DNA of 64,000 nt, taken from NCBI GenBank assembly GCA_030748575.1, contig JASMLR010000006.1, positions 1-64,000 of the forward strand, in the 5' to 3' direction. The notes below the pieces were generated by a model, which was not told the origin of the DNA, did no database searches, and worked only from the letters and a program-made list of their open reading frames with translations. The position numbers and the translations under genes were made by a program. Position 1 is the stretch's first letter; the number at the start of each line of letters is the position of its first letter. Source of the DNA: Phycisphaerales bacterium (GTDB taxonomy: Bacteria > Planctomycetota > Phycisphaerae > Phycisphaerales > SM1A02). Of this stretch, positions 34,611 to 46,237 are shown piece by piece.

Positions 34611-36008
34611 TCAGCGGCTGAGGAGTCGGAACAACCACCCGGGCTGCGGACTCGCCGCCACGCCCGGGCCGCCGGCTATGGCCTGGGCCGCGAGGTAGCC
34701 GCTCCGCACCGCCCCCTCCATGGTGGCCGGCCACCCGCTGTCGCACCAGTCGCCCGCGAGATACAGGCCCTCGATATCCCCGCCCATCGCGCCGACAGGC
34801 GAAGGTGCCGCGGCCGGACGGGCTTGCTCGGCATCGGCGGTGGCGGCAAACGTTGCTCGCCGCTCCTTCACCGCCCGGCAAAGCAGCAGTTCCCGGCCTG
34901 GCAGGTCCGGGAAGGCCGCGGCGAGGTCATCCAACACACGCTGCTGGATTGCATCAGGGCCGAGGTCCATCCAGGCATCCGCCGCGCTGACAACAGCGTG
35001 CAGGTGCTGGGCTCCGGACGCATCGACGCCCTTGTTGAATACCCAATGCACACCCCTTCCGGGAAGCACCAGATGCGGCTCATCCATGACCGGGCCGTCC
35101 ACCACGACATGGACGCCGAGAATCGGGCTGTGTCCCAGTTGCTCCAATCCTTGCAGCCGCGCATCCATCGCCATCAGGCGATCATCGGCGATGGCTTCAA
35201 GCCGCTCCCACGGTATGGCAGCGCACACCGCCTCGCCGCGAACAAACTGCCGATTCGTCTCCACGCCAATCGCGCGGCGGCCATCGAGCGCGATGCCGGA
35301 AGCCGACCAGCCGCACCGCACCTCACCGCCACCCTCGGCGATGCACCGCGCCGCAGGCTCGTACAGTTCGACAAGCGGCACCGTGGGCACACCCATCGTC
35401 GCCTGCCACCGTCCGGCCATGAAGCCCTCTCGAAATACCTGCACGGCATGACGCGCCGACACGCGGTCAAGGCTCAGATTGCACGCGCTGACGACGATCG
35501 GCTCCCAGAACAGCCGGCGAACCTCGGGCCCCTGCTTCCAGTCGTCGAGCAACGCATCGAAGGTCCGTGATGCCGCGGCGAGCCTCGCCGCTGCAGACAT
35601 CCGAAGCATCCGCCACATGGCCCGCCGAACCTGCCGCTTCATGGCCCGATCCAGCAGTCGCATGCGGCGAAGAGACCCCGCCAGGTGCAGCGGCGCGGGG
35701 AGCCGGCTGGGCCGCATGACATCTCGGCCCCCGTCGGGCCGAAGCCACCTGACATCCTCGTGCCACTCAATGGCATCGCCCACGCCGATCCGCTCATACA
35801 AGTCGAGCAGGTTGGCGCAACATCCCATGAGTACGTGTTGGCAGTTGTCGAGCGTGCGACCGCTCTGCGCATCATCAAAGCTCGACGCCCGCCCTCCCAG
35901 TCGCCTTCTGGACTCGAGCACGATCGGCCTGCAGCCTCGGTCGAGCAGACGGATCGCTGCGGCCAGCCCGGCCAGGCCCCCGCCGATGACCACGACTTCC
36001 CGGCTCAA
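34611..36008 (-). CDS. hpnE: Hydroxysqualene dehydroxylase (squalene-associated FAD-dependent desaturase)
   Basis: Last step of the three-enzyme bacterial squalene route: hydroxysqualene to squalene. The 465-residue flavoprotein starts with the FAD-binding VVVIGGGLAGLAAAIRLLD, then LESRRRLGGRASSF and the conserved DNCQHVLMGCC, which separates HpnE from carotenoid desaturases. The C-terminal FAD segment is GLYLAGDWCDSGWPATMEGAV. Its ATG overlaps the hpnD stop by four bases, so hpnC-hpnD-hpnE are translationally coupled. Confidence 0.92.
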   Translation of the reverse strand: MSREVVVIGGGLAGLAAAIRLLDRGCRPIVLESRRRLGGRASSFDDAQSGRTLDNCQHVLMGCCANLLDLYERIGVGDAIEWHEDVRWLRPDGGRDVMRPSRLPAPLHLAGSLRRMRLLDRAMKRQVRRAMWRMLRMSAAARLAAASRTFDALLDDWKQGPEVRRLFWEPIVVSACNLSLDRVSARHAVQVFREGFMAGRWQATMGVPTVPLVELYEPAARCIAEGGGEVRCGWSASGIALDGRRAIGVETNRQFVRGEAVCAAIPWERLEAIADDRLMAMDARLQGLEQLGHSPILGVHVVVDGPVMDEPHLVLPGRGVHWVFNKGVDASGAQHLHAVVSAADAWMDLGPDAIQQRVLDDLAAAFPDLPGRELLLCRAVKERRATFAATADAEQARPAAAPSPVGAMGGDIEGLYLAGDWCDSGWPATMEGAVRSGYLAAQAIAGGPGVAASPQPGWLFRLLSR

Positions 36009-36880
36009 GAACGCCGCCTCCCCGCGGAGAGCATGATCCGAAGCTTCGTCAGGGTCGACAACGCCACGCCAGGCACACCGCAGCAGGCGTGCGGGTGCGC
36101 AGCCAGTCTCCGGAGCAGCTCCCGATACACCCCCGTCATCGCGCAGAGCGTTCGTCGGCAGTCGGGCGAAACCAGATCGTCAAGGGGCGCTGATGTCGCA
36201 TACGCGCGTTCCGCACGCTGGATCCACGTCCGCACAACGGACTCGCACGCCCGCTCATCACGCCACGTGGCAAGGGCAGAAGCGTCGATGCCATGCTTGC
36301 GAAGGTCCTCGGCCGGAATGTAGCAGCGACCACGCGCCGCATCGTCGCCAATGTCTCGCAGGATATTGGTCAGTTGCAGGGCAATGCCCCGCTCCACCGC
36401 GAGTTCGGGTGCGGCGTCACCGGTGTATCCCCAGATGGTGATGCACAACTCACCGACCGTCGATGCAACGCATCGGCAGTAGTCAAGAAGGTCTTCTTCA
36501 GTCTCGATGACCCGCGAGGCCAGGTCGTCCCGCTGCCCGCGAATCATGTCGACAAACGCCCGCTCGGGAAGGTCCCAGGACTGCGCAAGCCACTGCAACG
36601 CAAGCCACATCGGCTCCGGCCCGGGCTCGCCACCCCTGAGAACATCAAGCGTGGCTGATTCAAAGTCGTCCAGCATGGCCATGGCCAGATCCGGATCGTC
36701 CGCATCATCGGCGATGTCATCGGCGCGGCGCATCCACGCGTACACCGCGTACAGCGCGGTCCTCCGCGGCTCCGGCAGCAGGCGAAGGCCCCAGTAGAAG
36801 TTCCCCGCGCGGCGTTTGACCAGTGTGCGGCACCACACAGCGGCTTCCCGGGGCGGCTCCATCACCACGGAAGCACTCAT
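36005..36880 (-). CDS. hpnD: Presqualene diphosphate synthase
   Basis: Condenses two farnesyl diphosphates to presqualene diphosphate. The 291-residue trans-isoprenyl diphosphate synthase shows both aspartate-rich motifs: RRADDIADD near residue 50 and LTNILRDIGDDAARGRCYIP in the second half. KRRAGNFYWGLRLLPEPRR at the start is the HpnD form. It overlaps both hpnC and hpnE by four bases. Confidence 0.92.
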   Translation of the reverse strand: MSASVVMEPPREAAVWCRTLVKRRAGNFYWGLRLLPEPRRTALYAVYAWMRRADDIADDADDPDLAMAMLDDFESATLDVLRGGEPGPEPMWLALQWLAQSWDLPERAFVDMIRGQRDDLASRVIETEEDLLDYCRCVASTVGELCITIWGYTGDAAPELAVERGIALQLTNILRDIGDDAARGRCYIPAEDLRKHGIDASALATWRDERACESVVRTWIQRAERAYATSAPLDDLVSPDCRRTLCAMTGVYRELLRRLAAHPHACCGVPGVALSTLTKLRIMLSAGRRRS

Positions 36881-37815
36881 GCCGCGCGTCCTCGCCTCGC
36901 GGCGTTCCAGAGCAGCCAGAGTTTTCGAGGCTTAGACAAGGACACCCGGTACAGCACGGTCTCGTGATCCGCCCGCTCGATCAGGTCAAGGATGGTCAGG
37001 CCGCCGGCAGCAAACAGCCACAGCATCGAACGTAAGTCAGCCGGCCCCGCATCGAGCAGCACGTCGACCTCGTCCAGAAGCGGGCGGGTCCGCGCAACAA
37101 GGTCCCGCATGACCGCCCGGTACTCCGCGAGGAAACTCCGGTCCGGCGCGTGCCCGACCGACGCGGTCGCACTGAGCCGGGCCTCGAAGTCGCCGCTGGG
37201 CATGCATGCTCGCGGAATGTAGATGCGATCCCGCTCCACCAGGTCTCGCCGGACATCCTGCCAGTGGTTGGCGAGTTGCAGCCCGGTGCACACGGCATCG
37301 CTCGCCGTCACCAGGTCCGGTCGATCGCCCACACCGGCCAGTTGCAGCACGAGCCGGCCCACCGGGTCGGCGCTGCCTCGGCAGTAGCCGATCAGGTCGT
37401 CCCAGGAGTCATACCGGTTCTGCCGCTGATCCTGCTCGAACGCGTCAATCAGTCTGTGAAACAGCGCCGTGTCCAACCCGTACCGATCGATCATCGGCGC
37501 CAGGGCCACGAACACCGGGTGACGGGGCTCGCCCGCTTCACACAGGCGAAGTTCGGACCGCCACCATGCAAGCCGCACGGACGCTGTTGCAGCGTCTTCG
37601 GACTCGTCCGACAGATCGTCGGCCCATCTGCAGAACGCGTACACGGCGGACACACCGTCACGCATCCGATCCGGCACAAAGCGGCTCAGTACGCTGAAGT
37701 TCTCATAGTGACCGAGCGTCAAGCGGCGACAATAGGCCGCGGCCTGCTCAACAGGGACGCACTCGCAGCGTTCGGGCCCCCACCGGTCCAACATGTCGAT
37801 GATCTGGCTGCCCAT
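36877..37815 (-). CDS. hpnC: Squalene synthase HpnC (hydroxysqualene synthase)
   Basis: Converts presqualene diphosphate to hydroxysqualene. The product has LTLGHYENFSVLSRFVP and FCRWADDLSDE (first Asp motif), QNRYDSWDDLIGYCRGSADPVG, then NHWQDVRRDLVERDRIYIP (second). The start is either the ATG at 37815 (312 residues, used here) or one at 37839. Neither has a clear ribosome-binding site, and the frame beyond enters the divergent ispH leader. It is the first gene of hpnCDE, back to back with ispH. Confidence 0.9.
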   Translation of the reverse strand: MGSQIIDMLDRWGPERCECVPVEQAAAYCRRLTLGHYENFSVLSRFVPDRMRDGVSAVYAFCRWADDLSDESEDAATASVRLAWWRSELRLCEAGEPRHPVFVALAPMIDRYGLDTALFHRLIDAFEQDQRQNRYDSWDDLIGYCRGSADPVGRLVLQLAGVGDRPDLVTASDAVCTGLQLANHWQDVRRDLVERDRIYIPRACMPSGDFEARLSATASVGHAPDRSFLAEYRAVMRDLVARTRPLLDEVDVLLDAGPADLRSMLWLFAAGGLTILDLIERADHETVLYRVSLSKPRKLWLLWNAARRGRAA

Positions 37816-37881
37816 CGAGGTCGGCAGGCTATCATGCATGCCCCGCCGCGGCCCATTCACGGACTGATCGAAGGAGACCCC

Positions 37882-38940
37882 ATGCGCATCCTGCTGGCCA
37901 ACCCACGTGGCTTCTGCGCCGGCGTGTACATGGCCATCGACGTGGTCGATCAACTCCTCGCCATCGTCCCCGGGGAGGCGATCTACGTGTATCACGAAAT
38001 CGTTCACAACAAGCACGTCGTGAATCGATTTGAACGCCGCGGCGTCCAATTCGTTGAGGCCATCACCGAGGTGCCGGAAGGTGCCGTCCTCGTCTTCAGC
38101 GCCCATGGTGTCGCCCCGTCGGTCAGGTTGGAGGCGGAGCGGCGGAGCCTCATCGCCATTGACGCAACCTGCCCGCTGGTGACCAAAGTCCACGCCGAGG
38201 CCATTCGCTACGCCGCGCGAGGCTGGCAGATTCTCCTCATCGGCCACAAGGACCATCAGGAGGTCATCGGAACGCGAGGCGAGGCCCCTGAGGCCATCCA
38301 GGTGGTCGATTCGCCGGAAGTCATCCCGGGCCTGCAGATCAACGACCCCGAGAAGCTGATCTACCTGACGCAAACGACGCTAAGTATGGATGAGGCCGCG
38401 AGCATCGTCTCTGCGCTTCGATCAGCGTTTCCGGCAATCCACGAACCTCCGAGCGAAGACATCTGCTACGCGACGACCAACCGCCAAATCGCTGTGCGAC
38501 ACCTGGCGCCCGAGTGCGATCTGGTCGTCGTCGTCGGCTCCCGCAACAGTTCCAATTCACAGCGACTTCGAGAACTCGCGGAGGCAAGCGGCACGCCCGC
38601 GGTGCTCATTGACGACCACCTCGAACTCGACGAAACACTGCTCAGCGGCGTAGACGCCTTGCTGCTGACCGCCGGCGCCAGCGCTCCGGAAGACCTCGTG
38701 CAATCCGTGCTTCTCCGACTCGCCGCCAGGGAAGATGTGGTCGTTGAACAACACGACGTGTTCCACGAGTCGGTTGAGTTCGGCCTGCCCGGCACGCTCA
38801 AGAAGTTCATGCGGAGCCGAGGTGTCGACCCCACGGGGCGTCGCATCGCCATGGACAACATCGCGTCGACGCGGCTGTTCCTGACCGAAAATGACATCGA
38901 ACACCGGGTCGTCGATCTGACGGTGAGCGCATCCCGGTGA
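37882..38940 (+). CDS. ispH: 4-hydroxy-3-methylbut-2-enyl diphosphate reductase
   Basis: Last enzyme of the MEP pathway, making IPP and DMAPP with a [4Fe-4S] cluster. The 352-residue product has the three cluster cysteines: Cys12 in RGFCAGV, one in DATCPLVTKVH, and one in DICYATTNRQ. The substrate segments EIVHNKHV, SAHGVAP and GSRNSSNSQRL are present. AAGGAG lies five bases before the ATG. It shares a short intergenic region with hpnC, tying precursor supply to squalene formation, and ends in a four-base overlap with rlmN. Confidence 0.96.
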   Translation: MRILLANPRGFCAGVYMAIDVVDQLLAIVPGEAIYVYHEIVHNKHVVNRFERRGVQFVEAITEVPEGAVLVFSAHGVAPSVRLEAERRSLIAIDATCPLVTKVHAEAIRYAARGWQILLIGHKDHQEVIGTRGEAPEAIQVVDSPEVIPGLQINDPEKLIYLTQTTLSMDEAASIVSALRSAFPAIHEPPSEDICYATTNRQIAVRHLAPECDLVVVVGSRNSSNSQRLRELAEASGTPAVLIDDHLELDETLLSGVDALLLTAGASAPEDLVQSVLLRLAAREDVVVEQHDVFHESVEFGLPGTLKKFMRSRGVDPTGRRIAMDNIASTRLFLTENDIEHRVVDLTVSASR

Positions 38941-40004
38941 GCCGCGGCCAGAGCTTCTTTGACCACACGCCTGAGAGCCTGCAGGACTGGTGCGTGTCCC
39001 GCGGGATGCCTCGGCACGCCTCGAGCCAGATGCTGACCTGGGTCTATGGGAACCAGGAAGTCAATCCGGCGGCCATGACCAACATTTCGGGCGACCACCG
39101 CGCCTTGATCGCAGCATCGCTGCCCATCGAAGAAGGACGGGAGATCCGCAGGCAGGTTGCCACGGACGGAACCCGCAAACTGCTCATCGAGTGGCCTGAT
39201 GCTGAGGACCGGCTCCCGATCGCGGGTCGCCAGCCCTCCACCGAAGCCGTGTTGATTCCGGCGGACGCACGCCGGACCGCCTGCATTTCCAGCCAGGTCG
39301 GGTGTCCGGTTGGATGCCGGTTCTGCGCATCAGGGATGGGTGGACTCGAAGGCAATCTGACGGCGGGGCGTATGGTCGAGCAGGTCCATCGGCTGGGCCG
39401 GCTCGGCGCAGGCCGCATCACCAATGTCGTCTTCATGGGAATGGGTGAGCCGCTCGCCAACTACAAGGCGGTCACGTCGGCCATTCGGACCATCAATGCA
39501 CCGTGGGGCCTCGGAATCGGCGCGCGACGCATCACGGTCTCCACCGTTGGCCTGCCCGAGGCCATTCGAAGGCTCGCATCGTTCTCACTGCCCGTCACCC
39601 TTGCCCTCAGCTTGCACGCCCCCGACGACGAACTTCGAAAGTCGCTCATTCCGTGGGCGGAGCATGCATCCATCGAGGACATCCTGGCCGCCTGCCGCGA
39701 CTACTTTGAAGCGACCGGCCGCGAGATCACCATTGAGTATCTGCTCCTCCGAGACGTCAATGACCGGCCGGAACATGCTCGGCTGCTGGCCGATCGCGCA
39801 CGCTCGCTTCGGTGCAACATCAACCTGATCCGCTACAACGAGGTCGAGGGCCTCCCATACGGCCGTCCCCGTGACGCAGACGTCCACGCCTTCCAGAGCG
39901 TCCTGCGGGATGCGAGGATCAACACGCACATTCGCGCAAGCCGTGGCCGAGACATTGACGCTGCATGCGGGCAATTGCGACAAGCGGCGCAGCAAGCGCG
40001 TTGA
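38937..40004 (+). CDS. rlmN: 23S rRNA (adenine2503-C2)-methyltransferase RlmN
   Basis: Radical SAM enzyme that methylates C2 of A2503 in 23S rRNA and A37 in some tRNAs. It starts at a GTG that overlaps the ispH stop (GTGA). The cluster motif is Cys123-x3-Cys127-x2-Cys130 in GCPVGCRFCASG. Family segments are NVVFMGMGEPLANY, RRITVSTVGL, ALSLHAPDDELR and EYLLLRDVND. The cysteine that carries the methyl group should lie in the C-terminal part (DAACGQLR). The 355-residue length is typical. Confidence 0.95.
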   Translation: MSRGQSFFDHTPESLQDWCVSRGMPRHASSQMLTWVYGNQEVNPAAMTNISGDHRALIAASLPIEEGREIRRQVATDGTRKLLIEWPDAEDRLPIAGRQPSTEAVLIPADARRTACISSQVGCPVGCRFCASGMGGLEGNLTAGRMVEQVHRLGRLGAGRITNVVFMGMGEPLANYKAVTSAIRTINAPWGLGIGARRITVSTVGLPEAIRRLASFSLPVTLALSLHAPDDELRKSLIPWAEHASIEDILAACRDYFEATGREITIEYLLLRDVNDRPEHARLLADRARSLRCNINLIRYNEVEGLPYGRPRDADVHAFQSVLRDARINTHIRASRGRDIDAACGQLRQAAQQAR

Positions 40005-40017
40005 CCGCTCGGCACCG

Positions 40018-43000
40018 CTACGACGATGGCTGATCAGCCTCTCGCCGGCGGCGGATCTCACGGCGAAACGCGGCAGGGCTGATCCGGCGCAGCCGGCCGT
40101 CGAGCGAGATCTCGTGCATCCATTCGATCGCCGCGTGCCAGCCGTCATAGTGATCTTCCGGAGCGCTGGCCGCCTGCATGACCGCCTCTTTGACCAGGTC
40201 GCGTACCTGCCGCTGCGATCGCCGTCCTCGCAGCTTGGATGGAACGACCCACCGCAGCGCAGCCAGCACATGCGCAAGCCAGTCGCTCGATCGAAGGTCC
40301 AGCCGCAGCCTCCACCGAACAAACGTGCACTCGATTCGCGTGAGGTAGCGGACCGAAATGTGATCGCCCCGACCCTTCCGCACATTGAGCCGCTGCCGGG
40401 TGAGCCTGCGGTGCTCGCTGCCGATGGCCATGGACGCCACGTACACCGCGTCTCTGATGAGGAGGGACTCCGCCAGCGGCAGGACCGCAGCCCGGGTCAG
40501 TGCCCGGCCGGTGTCCGCCCGGTCGGCTCGGTACAAGGCAATGATGCGGTCGGCAAACCGTTCGGCCAACTCAAACCCACCCCAAGTCACGCACCGCCGG
40601 AGTGCCACGATGAAGTCCCGATGGGCCTCCCGGCCCGGCGACGTTTCCAGCAGGCCAGGCACTTCTCCGATCGCCCGCTCCACGAGTTGGCGGAACCGAT
40701 CCGCACGATCTCGCCCGTACCCCTTTCCACGAGCCAGCATGAGCCGATACCGCCGCACGGACTTGCCGGCCGGCTCCAGGGGTGCTTCCTGCGTGCGCAG
40801 GAGCCCGTCGGGATCACCCCATGCGGCCCTGCCGTGTTCAAAGGCCTCGGCAAGCCGCGCGACGCCGCTGGCCTTCACTCGCTGCATGGCCTGATGCATC
40901 GCATCCAGTGAGAGCGGAATGGCCCCCGACTGCCACGCCATACCGAGCAGCACCATGTCCGCGAGCCGCTCATTGTGAAACTGAAATCGGCATGCGCCCG
41001 TCACGTCCGCTGCCGTGACGGCATCGTCGCCCAGCGCCCGCTCCAGGTGGCCCGCAATGATCTGACCGAATCCTTCGGGCTCATCCCCACGGTCGATTTC
41101 CTCTTCGAACGCGCCGGTGTTGGCGACCACCCGGGTCCGACCGCGGCCAGCCACGCGAAGTGCGCCGTCAGGGTCCACCGCTCGCAGCGTGGCGAGGCGG
41201 TCATACCCGATCAGCAGATCGGCTTCGCCCCAGGGGACAATCGGCGGGACCGCTGCGCGTTCCGCCTGATCTCGCGGGCGAGAGAACACGATCTGCGCAT
41301 GGGCCCGCCGCCCGGGCCCGATCGGCATCGGATCAGCCAGCGTCTCCACGTGGTATCCCATCACGACGGCGGCCTCCTGCAGGACCGCAGCGACGACACC
41401 CGGAGCGGTGCTTCGAAGCCCCGCCAGGTGGGCGTACCACACGGGACTCTCGGCATGCAGAAACTCGGGCTGCCCCGGAACCGCCTCGTCGCCAACCCCA
41501 CGGCTGGGCGCGCGGGACCGCCGCACTTCAATCTGCTCGACGATGGGCTGCACGCGGGCGGCGACTCTGGGCGGCCATCGCAGGGGCACGGCCTCGACCG
41601 CCATCGTCGCGCGGCTCGACACCGCCTCGTGAACCGCCCACTGATCACGCTGCCTCAAACGTGAGGGTTGGCGGATTACGCACGCCCGGTCAGCCGGCCA
41701 GACGAGTTGCTGGGTCACCTGATATCCCACCCGATCGACGTCCTCGACCTCCCGGTCAAAGGTGGCCGCATCGAATCGGGGCGGAGGGCCGTCTTCGAGA
41801 ATCAGCACCGTCAGGCCGGCCGCGGCTGCGGCGCCCCGCATGTGCCGGGCCAGCTCCGCCGGGCCGGGGCTGGTCGGCCGCTGCACGCGGACCAGATTCG
41901 CTGCAGCCGAAGGGGTGACGGCCCGCGTGAGCCGCTCAAGGTCCTGGCCGCCTGACCCCGAACTCGCCGCCACGACCATCAGCCAGGATCCGCCATCCAC
42001 AGCGGCCTGCCGGACCGCGGCGGCGCCGTTGCGGCGAAACGACGAGGCCGTCCAGACTTCGCACATGACGACCCGGCCTTCAGCCGGACCAATCCGGAGG
42101 CCGTCAAAGAGCCACTGAATTGGCTCCTGCTGCCCATCTTCGGGCGGCTCCTCGCCGGCTTCGTCGGGCTCGCCCCCCGCCTCAAGCGTCGTCAGGACCG
42201 ACGCCCGAATGTGCGCCGCATGCGCCGCCTCGCCAAACTTCATGGCGTCCGGATACGCAGGGCATGGGGGCGGCGGCGAACTCAACCGCTCCTCAAGCGG
42301 CGTCCCTGTCACGACAGGCTGGATCAGCGGCGTCAGCACGCGGGCCAGCGGCGATGGATGAGTCAGGCCGGCTGCCGAGGCCCCCCCGGGCAGTTCACGG
42401 CCCCAGACGGATGCCGGGGTCTGACCATCACCGGCCAGCCGCTGGGCCCGCCGACGCGCGGCCACTTCGACGGTCTGACCACTCGGCTCCAGCACGACAA
42501 CATCCCTGCAGCGCAGCAGCAGACGCTCGATGGCGGCTTCGTCGAGCGGATTGGAAACGACCAGATGCAGCGTTGGCACCCGGCCCTCGACGCCGAGAAT
42601 GACCTCGATGCGCCGCATCGCCCGCACGACAGCACCGACGACGATGAAGCCGACCGGAGCCCTCTCCCCGGGGCTCGGCATCGAACGCGCCGAGTTCAAC
42701 TCAAGCCGTCTGGTGATTCGAAGCGGGCCGCCGAGTTGGTCCCACCGTGGACCACGTCGTCGCGGCGGGCCGGCAAGCGGGCTCCCCCCCATCCGGTTCG
42801 GATGGATCTTGACACTGGACATGGCTCGCAGGATGTCGCGGTCGACGAGCATCACGGCTGGAATGCGGGCGCCCCTGCTGAGCCGCAGCGTGTGCTCGAC
42901 CGCGTCCCGAACATGCGACACCGAGGTCGCTTCGAGTACGGGCAGGCCCGCCTCGACCAGTTGCGCGCGGAGCCCGGCTCTGCCTGCATCATCCTCCAGC

Positions 43001-43380
43001 AGCACGGCCAGTCCCTCGGCTTCCTCCAGCGGCGGATCCACCGATCGCAGCAACGCGCGAATCCCGTTCCCAACAGTGGGGCCCGAGAGTACGACCACGA
43101 CATGCCGGCCGTCCCGGGCCGCCCACCGCCCCAACTGCATCACGCGGCCCGCGTCGTCTGTTGAGCGGACGACCAGCCGGTGACGCCGCAGAAAGTCCTT
43201 GATGCTTGGCTGCAGCACCGCCCGCTCAAGCGAGCGGGACCCGCTGCTTTGCGTGAAGATGAACCGAGACACAGCGGCCTCACTCTCAAGCACGCCTTTG
43301 ATCGCCGCCTCGTGCGCCGTCAGGACTGCCTGCCCCTCATGCCGCTGCAGCGGATGGCCAACCTGGTCCGGCGACGTCAC
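40018..43380 (-). CDS. Degenerate indolepyruvate ferredoxin oxidoreductase-like protein (IorA-IorB fusion)
   Basis: A roughly 1,120-residue chain with the order of parts of a 2-oxoacid:ferredoxin oxidoreductase. First an IorA-like N-terminal region (LTAHEAAIKGVLESEAAV through LRLSRGARIPAVMLVDRD) and a TPP-domain-like middle (from about FGEAAHAAHIRASVL to AGLTVLILEDGP). Then an IorB-like gamma part (EADLLIGYDRLATLRAVDPDG, MVLLGMAWQSGAIPLSLDAMHQAM) and a C-terminal domain. The usual GDxxF/N metal-TPP signature and the CPGCPHR motif are not recognisable, and no 4-cysteine ferredoxin segment is seen. It is probably not a conventional TPP enzyme. Two GTG starts are possible (43389 and 43380); the latter gives a four-base overlap with the HAD gene. 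Confidence 0.65.
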   Translation of the reverse strand: MTSPDQVGHPLQRHEGQAVLTAHEAAIKGVLESEAAVSRFIFTQSSGSRSLERAVLQPSIKDFLRRHRLVVRSTDDAGRVMQLGRWAARDGRHVVVVLSGPTVGNGIRALLRSVDPPLEEAEGLAVLLEDDAGRAGLRAQLVEAGLPVLEATSVSHVRDAVEHTLRLSRGARIPAVMLVDRDILRAMSSVKIHPNRMGGSPLAGPPRRRGPRWDQLGGPLRITRRLELNSARSMPSPGERAPVGFIVVGAVVRAMRRIEVILGVEGRVPTLHLVVSNPLDEAAIERLLLRCRDVVVLEPSGQTVEVAARRRAQRLAGDGQTPASVWGRELPGGASAAGLTHPSPLARVLTPLIQPVVTGTPLEERLSSPPPPCPAYPDAMKFGEAAHAAHIRASVLTTLEAGGEPDEAGEEPPEDGQQEPIQWLFDGLRIGPAEGRVVMCEVWTASSFRRNGAAAVRQAAVDGGSWLMVVAASSGSGGQDLERLTRAVTPSAAANLVRVQRPTSPGPAELARHMRGAAAAAGLTVLILEDGPPPRFDAATFDREVEDVDRVGYQVTQQLVWPADRACVIRQPSRLRQRDQWAVHEAVSSRATMAVEAVPLRWPPRVAARVQPIVEQIEVRRSRAPSRGVGDEAVPGQPEFLHAESPVWYAHLAGLRSTAPGVVAAVLQEAAVVMGYHVETLADPMPIGPGRRAHAQIVFSRPRDQAERAAVPPIVPWGEADLLIGYDRLATLRAVDPDGALRVAGRGRTRVVANTGAFEEEIDRGDEPEGFGQIIAGHLERALGDDAVTAADVTGACRFQFHNERLADMVLLGMAWQSGAIPLSLDAMHQAMQRVKASGVARLAEAFEHGRAAWGDPDGLLRTQEAPLEPAGKSVRRYRLMLARGKGYGRDRADRFRQLVERAIGEVPGLLETSPGREAHRDFIVALRRCVTWGGFELAERFADRIIALYRADRADTGRALTRAAVLPLAESLLIRDAVYVASMAIGSEHRRLTRQRLNVRKGRGDHISVRYLTRIECTFVRWRLRLDLRSSDWLAHVLAALRWVVPSKLRGRRSQRQVRDLVKEAVMQAASAPEDHYDGWHAAIEWMHEISLDGRLRRISPAAFRREIRRRREADQPSS

Positions 43381-44267
43381 TCCGCACACGCTCCGGCCAG
43401 ACGAAGCTTCCCATCCAGCAGATCGTGAATCAGGTGCGCGACGCCATCGGCGTGATGCGGTCCCGTCACGGCATCCGCCACCGCAAGGACCCGATGATCG
43501 GCATTCTCAACGGCCACGCCCAGACCGCACTGCTGCAACAACAGGACGTCGTTGACACCATCACCGACCGCCGCGGCCCGCTCGGAGTCAAGACCCTCGC
43601 GGCGACAGTGGGACTGCAACATGGTCCACTTGTCCGCCTGGGGATGAAACACCTCAAGCAGGTGAACGGCTGTGCCGTGATGGGCCGAACTCGTCACGGC
43701 CTCCCAGTGCCTTGCCAGCACCCGATCGCCGAGTGCTGCGTCGATTGCGTCCACCATCGGCGCGCATGCATGGGGGCTGCCGATGGCGCCGACTCGGACC
43801 GTGTCCTCGGGCCACGGGTCGTCGTCCAACCGCTCAACCCTCTTGTAGGTGGCGCCGGTCGACTCAAACCACCATGCGGACACCGGATGAATGTCTCCAA
43901 CACCGACCATGAGGTAATCAACACCACACGTATGGTGGTCCTTGAGCAACATCGCCAGCGAAGGGGTCTCAAGCACGTGTGACACGGCATGTTCCACGTC
44001 GCGGGCAGGCACCGTCAGCCGATCGAGCGTCCTGGCAGCCGTGACGTCCTGAAGCAACGCGCCGCTCGCCGCAATCAACGCCCCGCTGTAGTCGATGCTC
44101 TCCAGAATGTCGCCGCATTCACTCAGGGTCCTGCCGGTGGCAATGACATAGGACAATCCTTCCGACGTCGCGCGATGCAGCGCCTCGCGGTTGGCGCCAG
44201 ACACCGTGCCACCGGCGCCAAGCAAGGTGCCGTCCAGATCGATCGCGAGCAGTTCGGGACGCCCCAT
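43377..44267 (-). CDS. Cof-type HAD-superfamily phosphatase
   Basis: A 296-residue haloacid dehalogenase-like hydrolase, class IIB (Cof). Motif I is LLAIDLDGTLLG, with DxDGT at the start. Motif II is IATGRTLSECGD. The lysine/motif III region is in the middle, and AAAVGDGVNDVLLLQQCGLGVAVEN is the GDxxND motif IV. The family dephosphorylates sugar phosphates or FMN; the substrate is unknown. The start at 44267 opens MGRPELLAIDLDGT. Upstream frame extension is low-complexity. It is the first gene of a two-gene unit with the giant oxidoreductase-like gene and diverges from the kinase gene. Confidence 0.9.
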   Translation of the reverse strand: MGRPELLAIDLDGTLLGAGGTVSGANREALHRATSEGLSYVIATGRTLSECGDILESIDYSGALIAASGALLQDVTAARTLDRLTVPARDVEHAVSHVLETPSLAMLLKDHHTCGVDYLMVGVGDIHPVSAWWFESTGATYKRVERLDDDPWPEDTVRVGAIGSPHACAPMVDAIDAALGDRVLARHWEAVTSSAHHGTAVHLLEVFHPQADKWTMLQSHCRREGLDSERAAAVGDGVNDVLLLQQCGLGVAVENADHRVLAVADAVTGPHHADGVAHLIHDLLDGKLRLAGACAE

Positions 44268-45316: not shown

Positions 45317-45421
45317 GGCTTGAGCCATCGGGGGAACCCTCGCAGTGGGCCCCGCTTGGCGGTACGATGCCGGGTCACCTTCGCCCCCACGGGGGCGGCA
45401 ACGCAGGGATTCCACTCGACC

Positions 45422-46237
45422 ATGGCTGGCAATGAAGATCGCAAACGCCTTGAGCAGGTCCACCAGACCGACCTGAATGAGGGCCGCATCAACGAGGATT
45501 TCGTGACGTGGCTCAAGACCAAAGGGCCCACGTGGCTCCTGATCATTCTTGCGTTCATCGTCGCCTACCTGTGGATGAATCGGTGGCAGGCCCAGGAGCA
45601 GCGGGAGCGGAACGAAGCCTGGGCTGACCTGGCGACCACCGTGCAGCCCGCCTCCCTGGAGGATGTTGCGATTCGCCACGCCGGCATCGACGCGGTGCCG
45701 GCCCTCGCCCGACTCACAGCCGCCGACTCCCTCCTGCGGGAGATTCAACTTGGAAGCACGACCGCCGAGGACGGCCAGACCATCGTGAAACTGGAAGGCG
45801 ACGCCCGGGCGTCGCACCTGGCTCAGGCCGGCCGCCTGTACGAAGCGGTTCTCGCCGAAGACGACGGGTCGTCCGGCAAGGCCGTCGTGATCGTGGCCGC
45901 GCTGAACGGACTGGCGGCGGTCGCGGAGTGCGAAGGCAACGTCGCAGCAGCGGAAGAACGCTATCGAGAGGCGGCGCGCCGCGCCGAAGGCTGGATGCCG
46001 GCCATCGCCGAGCAGGCGACCGCCCGCGCCGACTCGGTATCCGAACTGGCCGGGGACATCGAGTTCGCGCAGGCCCCCGCCCCGCCAGCCGTGCCGACCG
46101 GGCCACCCACGCCGGCCCCCGGACTTGCCCCGCCCCCGCTGGGCAGCACCCCGCCGCCGGCAGCGGCGCCCGAAACACCGGCGGCGCCCGAAACACCAGC
46201 CGCGTCCCCTGAGCCGGCTGCCGACTCCCCCAAGTGA
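45422..46237 (+). CDS. Membrane-anchored TPR-like protein (YfgM-like)
   Basis: A 271-residue protein with a cytoplasmic start, one span (WLLIILAFIVAYLWMNRW) and a periplasmic helical part rich in Ala and Glu. The helical part reads like YfgM/tetratricopeptide repeats (HLAQAGRLYEAVLAED, VAAAEERYREAARRAEG). A Pro/Ala-rich tail with two EPAAPETPAA-like units follows. YfgM proteins assist the SecYEG export machinery. The ATG at 45422 is chosen because the earlier frame (from 45320) is low-complexity and lacks this layout. The stop overlaps the following pseudouridine synthase GTG. Confidence 0.7.
   Translation: MAGNEDRKRLEQVHQTDLNEGRINEDFVTWLKTKGPTWLLIILAFIVAYLWMNRWQAQEQRERNEAWADLATTVQPASLEDVAIRHAGIDAVPALARLTAADSLLREIQLGSTTAEDGQTIVKLEGDARASHLAQAGRLYEAVLAEDDGSSGKAVVIVAALNGLAAVAECEGNVAAAEERYREAARRAEGWMPAIAEQATARADSVSELAGDIEFAQAPAPPAVPTGPPTPAPGLAPPPLGSTPPPAAAPETPAAPETPAASPEPAADSPK

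Follow-up and report, generated by a model that had tools for sequence, protein, structure and literature searches.

Fused indolepyruvate:ferredoxin oxidoreductases (IFORs) carry a set of motifs that bind TPP and Mg, supply the catalytic Glu, hold the Fe-S cluster through cysteines and form a glycine loop. In the PFOR/OGOR enzymes, the TPP (PP) domain stands at another place in the chain than in the protein described here. Pseudoenzymes, more generally, are proteins that have lost catalytic residues while keeping their fold and remaining under purifying selection.

The window (the whole analysed stretch of 64,000 nucleotides from a Phycisphaerales bacterium, contig JASMLR010000006.1) contains a fused, IFOR-like protein from which these motifs are missing. 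Its open reading frame is real, occupying 40018-43389 of the minus strand with 1123 codons from the first GTG (43389) and a stop at 40018. The GTG at 43380 is the likelier start, since it shares four bases, GTGA, with the TGA stop of the upstream HAD phosphatase gene, an overlap that recurs identically in 17 of the 36 co-oriented HAD/IFOR-like pairs of relatives. This agrees with the end coordinate of 43380 given in an earlier note on this DNA, and the signature stretches quoted there were all found in the protein. The same note called the protein giant, which holds against IorA or IorB alone and fails against fused canonical IFORs, 1222-1271 aa long on the start codons chosen in this analysis. 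A HAD-IFOR fusion was considered and rejected: among relatives with open frames of ~1500 codons, the two longest N-terminal extensions (L055 and L066), judged by eye, look like non-coding high-GC frames and unlike a HAD domain. The lysine poverty of the protein (0.9%) was likewise discarded as a sign of new function, as most neighbouring genes are similarly poor. The gene, its parts and its two neighbours are as follows.

40018..43380, minus strand: fused IFOR-like protein in degenerate form, 1120 aa if started at GTG 43380 and 1123 aa if started at GTG 43389
42805..43347, minus strand: PYR-like domain, residues ~15-195, which has lost TGYPGSP and the motif of the catalytic Glu; borders from predicted secondary structure
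42286..42729, minus strand: domain II, transketolase-C-like and well preserved, residues ~221-368
42247..42264, minus strand: CPAYPD, which resembles CPGCPH by chance and is not conserved among relatives
41575..42237, minus strand: TPP (PP) domain, shrunken in the model, residues ~385-605, without TPP/Mg motifs
42025..42054, minus strand: WTASSFRRNG, aligned opposite canonical MGDGTFFHSG
41458..41574, minus strand: linker, residues ~606-644, closing the stretch in which canonical IFOR has its Fe-S cysteines, here lost
40795..41457, minus strand: gamma (POR-like) domain, residues ~645-865, with GVGGMG replaced by an A-G-x-R-G-x-x-P-G loop and with a PIGxGRR hairpin, both family-specific
40060..40770, minus strand: helical domain at the C-terminus, residues ~874-1110, corresponding to canonical DUF6537
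43377..44267, minus strand: HAD-IIB (Cof-type) phosphatase gene, its stop overlapping the IFOR-like start as GTGA
38937..40004, plus strand: rlmN, convergent downstream neighbour, in the conserved block

The relation to IFOR and the domain order proposed in the earlier note are borne out by a profile-profile alignment of 28 proteins of the window's family (f1; f2 to f6 denote other families of the same order) with 15 canonical ones, which is collinear and full-length over 1075 columns (E=4.6e-111). Among family models, NCBIfam PRK13030 (fused IFOR) matches the window protein over residues 646-915 only (E=1.9e-18), scoring 65.6 bits, well short of the curated cut-off of 816, and no Pfam family was matched, the C-terminal DUF6537 included. 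This last domain is found by Pfam in one canonical relative and in one from genus g60 of f6, and stands barely above cut-off in one f4 relative. No convincing sequence match of the window protein was found among solved chains.

Structure prediction, one of the checks suggested in the earlier note, gave an AlphaFold model with pLDDT 86.8 and pTM 0.85; among solved structures, it matches PFOR/OFOR enzymes best. The first 18 Foldseek matches are PFOR chains; the model reaches Z 24.6 over 495 residues against 7plm (PFOR), spanning model residues 17-860, and Z 25.3 over 308 residues against 6n2n (OGOR). Taken alone, the PP part (model pLDDT 76) has oxalate oxidoreductase as its best, though weak, Foldseek match (E 8e-3) and reaches a Z of about 9 against TPP-enzyme domains; as modelled, this domain appears shrunken, yet recognisable. 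The canonical majority residue is retained at 38% in domain II, 38% in the gamma domain and 35% in the C-terminus, and at 25% in PYR and 22% in PP. In addition, f1 has some two dozen positions where a residue unlike that of most canonical proteins, in many cases a charged one, reaches a conservation of >=93%.

The motif columns were read from an alignment of 45 f1, 15 canonical and 4 f4 rows, with the divergent f1 rows L051-L053 counted apart. All cofactor columns are invariant in 15/15 canonical IFORs, and invariance holds when Rhodococcus, Sinorhizobium, Novosphingobium and Cupriavidus plasmid IFORs are added to five canonical ones. In f1, 43-44 of the 45 rows have a deletion where CPGCPH should stand; at GDGTF, the G and D are lost, with the F kept in 41/45 and a later G in 40/45. 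Also gone are the Mg/TPP-motif N, the NNEA motif of the catalytic Glu and TGYPGSP. As the earlier note had it, GDxxF is absent from the expected segment, where the aligned stretch is WTASSFRRNG, and the cysteine-rich ferredoxin part is missing as well: in the linker, Cys is kept only at the first cluster-cysteine position (40/45), and the string CxxCxxC occurs in none of the f1 copies among L076-L120. The f1 gamma domain has A-G-x-R-G-x-x-P-G in place of GVGGMG, and P-T/M-P-I-G-x-G-R-R in place of KKGLAIRNGG. The statement that CPGCPHR appears as CPAYPD does not quite stand, and CPAYPD was rejected as a vestige of that motif, given that the segment is deleted in f1 and that the look-alike is unique to the window protein among those scanned. 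A search for cofactor residues intact at shifted positions found none, f1 having no CPGCPH and no conserved GDG...N; strings of the type GD[GAS]...N occur in a few of 41 f1 proteins scanned, at scattered places.

Of 201 related genomes searched at the protein level, 121 belong to f1, and 113 of these have the gene, usually as one full-length copy; the eight f1 genomes without a match are assemblies 54-92% complete; the survey of orthologues proposed in the earlier note thus shows the degenerate form to be family-wide. Another degenerate group of IFOR-like proteins belongs to f4, and the longer proteins of f5 and f6 have all canonical motifs present. With a canonical IFOR profile, the same genomes score above 1000 bits only in f5 and f6; no f1 genome searched holds a canonical-grade IFOR, the best reaching 287 bits. 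A second, normal IFOR was not found in the window's own genome either (best 61 bits against the cut-off of 816), which has on another contig a KorA/KorB-type pair whose beta protein carries CPGC and GDG...NN and which looks like a complete enzyme in its own right. In a sample of 392 genomes of the phylum, long matches are confined to this order and one canonical protein (L173) from another family of the class, weak matches elsewhere being mostly short stretches. A search by one pattern, which also covered other phyla, gave 45 relatives classed as Phycisphaerales, Phycisphaerae, Planctomycetia or Planctomycetota, with one 'uncultured bacterium'. No viral or plasmid copies were found in two further searches, one of them limited to a pattern. 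One f4 copy (L127, in G135) is split over two frames, possibly by a frameshift or an assembly error.

In an RpoB tree built from 27 genomes, f5 comes first and f6 next, followed by f4, f2/f3 and f1 as one clade; no IFOR-type gene was found in the f2/f3 genomes sampled. The ancestral enzyme is canonical, and its motifs decayed at least once on the line to f1 and f4 and probably a second time, in place, in g60 of f6. This genus, with the degenerate copies L121-L124, nests in f6 with the canonical-bearing G158 and G172 (100/97, RpoB tree). The IFOR gene adjoins a ketoacyl-synthase gene in 11 of the 18 listed genomes having both, namely in seven with a canonical copy (G174, G172, G129, G158, G162, G184 and G124), in one with an intermediate (G176) and in three with a degenerate copy (G166, G141 and G178), and the two genes lie apart in G164, G125 and five f4 genomes; L123, a fourth g60 locus, has the same neighbour too. 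That the g60 copies sit beside the same native neighbour as canonical copies in sister genera, in a genus nested in f6, argues for decay in place.

The rival history invokes a single loss event, the degenerate form having reached g60 by transfer or through hidden paralogy. The IFOR gene tree with outgroups (32 rows chosen by hand) joins g60, f4 and f1 at 100/99, and forcing g60 to the canonical side costs 13.2 log units, with an AU p of 0.053 that only just escapes rejection, so that one origin plus transfer keeps a real, if clearly smaller, chance. The branches of the IFOR tree are very long, which makes attraction likely, and for this reason two origins of the degenerate form are judged likelier than one. 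Another tree of relatives omitted three long rows (L016, L055 and L066).

The neighbour itself is a divergent subfamily of beta-ketoacyl synthase that adjoins IFOR genes in f6 and in G124 of f5 (loci L121, L122, L123, L126 and L130). It keeps its Cys-His-His residues in the five sequences aligned. The f1 genomes searched gave weak matches only to this synthase (E 2e-18 or worse). Two copies in f6 are half eroded: that of G125 (L125, 1866-5702) keeps CPGCPH and has GDAAY, and that of G176 (L126, 2080-6009) has CAGCPQ and GQGTF with the Fe-S cysteines and gamma loop intact. They may be living intermediates or enzymes with a changed substrate.

In f1, the gene lies in a stable block with putative murF-like and mraY-like genes, pseudouridine-synthase, APH-like and HAD genes, rlmN, ispH and hpnC-D-E. 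At 34611-38940 of the window, the squalene genes hpnC-hpnD-hpnE lie on the minus strand beside ispH on the plus strand, an arrangement kept at many f1 loci. The block also retains a 305-aa protein at 45320-46237, which no NCBIfam model matches and Pfam matches below threshold only. The coupling to a HAD phosphatase, which the earlier note had left unexplained, recurs: the HAD gene is co-oriented upstream in 36 of the 43 f1 loci with enough upstream DNA (two of 45 lay at contig edges), on the opposite strand in three and not found in four. The GTGA overlap suggests that both genes are translated in a coupled manner. Because the whole block is syntenic, adjacency to HAD is weak evidence of joint function. 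The pairing is f1-specific, no HAD match having been found in f4 or g60 loci. Directly upstream of an f4 degenerate IFOR, in the position of the f1 HAD gene, lies a 338-aa open reading frame without Pfam match (L128, 6592-7608).

Selection was estimated by Nei-Gojobori counts of dN/dS in the four degenerate pairs that allowed a measurement; another three pairs, from f1, were saturated. The ratio is 0.05 for the f1 pair L052/L053 (dS 1.6, near saturation), with 0.04 in its PP domain, 0.08 and 0.11 for the f4 pairs, and 0.31 for the f1 pair L021/L023 (dS 0.09, few changes); one canonical pair gave 0.26. The degenerate form is under purifying selection where measurable, the TPP-like domain included.

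On balance, the protein is probably a pseudo-oxidoreductase, that is, a fused IFOR stripped of its cofactor sites and kept as a folded, multi-domain protein for a non-redox role. To judge from the motifs lost, it would be unable to catalyse: losing TPP/Mg binding, the Fe-S cluster and the gamma glycine loop would leave no 2-oxoacid:ferredoxin oxidoreductase chemistry and no electron transfer. Since the cofactor sites are lost yet the gene is intact in most sequenced f1 members, it probably has another job. The suggestion of a re-purposed, possibly non-catalytic relative has come through every test run here, and no positive support was found for the altered-cofactor relative also envisaged in the earlier note. 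As to the new role, to which we attach less weight than to the lost chemistry, a non-redox scaffold or ligand-sensing partner would be likeliest, its work being done by domain II together with the gamma and C-terminal helical domains; in f1, its translation, and perhaps its action as well, would be tied to that of the HAD-IIB phosphatase. Residue-level evidence directly favouring a non-redox role is nil, and the PYR and PP domains are still constrained and predicted to fold, which a role confined to the gamma domain and C-terminus would not need.

That constraint across all domains, together with the two dozen conserved, often charged f1-specific positions, is what feeds the main rival, a new enzyme in which the scaffold performs a different catalysis at a site that includes family-specific residues, for example R659, H654, E722, R801, R808, D811 or the PIGxGRR hairpin. 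We consider it unlikely, though to be taken seriously, as the protein has no known active-site motif and no family match, and as f4 and g60 mostly lack those residues, so that such an activity would be f1-specific. Far less probable is an oxidoreductase with altered cofactor binding that draws TPP or electrons from a partner such as KorAB; the KorAB-type alpha and beta proteins in the genome and the retained predicted fold would suit it, but f1 as a family has lost the positions for Mg/TPP, the Glu, Fe-S and the glycine loop all together, and KorAB looks complete by itself, on another contig. A decaying pseudogene, to which the lost motifs and the scattered in-frame stops or frame breaks of a few MAG copies could be ascribed, is very improbable, because the frame is open over ~1100 codons in most of the 113 f1 genomes and dN/dS in the measurable pairs is 0.05-0.31 and low in every domain, the TPP-like one included.

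The pseudo-oxidoreductase reading may be carried one step further. The canonical IFORs of this lineage might themselves house a further function, unrelated to redox, in domain II, gamma and the DUF6537-like C-terminus. In that case, redox chemistry would have been repeatedly discarded in the order and the hidden function kept, one and the same locus giving parallel cofactor-free descendants, with the half-eroded copies of G176 and G125 still alive; we put this forward tentatively and hold it for doubtful.

Annotation pipelines would name such proteins indolepyruvate oxidoreductases or leave them unnamed, and both mislead. Within the order, intact enzymes, partly eroded copies and cofactor-free forms make up a graded series, at least some of it at a single locus, which would allow testing how a very large multi-cofactor enzyme turns into a pseudoenzyme and lets one ask what the uncharacterised DUF6537 domain does. 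The open full-text literature, outside which most subscription journals fall, yielded no account of a pseudoenzyme within the 2-oxoacid:ferredoxin oxidoreductase superfamily and no mention of DUF6537; the portions of open literature available on IFOR in Planctomycetes or ferredoxin oxidoreductase in Phycisphaerales contained nothing evidently on the degenerate form.

Among known systems, the PFOR/OGOR enzymes (PDB 2c3y, 7plm, 6cin, 6n2n) come close in fold to the modelled PYR, domain II and gamma parts of the window protein (Z 24-25), but share only ~10-14% identity with it, and it has none of their cofactor residues. Fused IFOR (PRK13029/PRK13030; Pfam POR, TPP_enzyme_C and DUF6537) is of the same length class, domain order and fold, whereas its signatures for TPP/Mg, Fe-S and the gamma glycine loop are absent from the window protein. 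In this the window protein is like pseudoenzymes in general, its catalytic residues being lost and its predicted fold and purifying selection kept.
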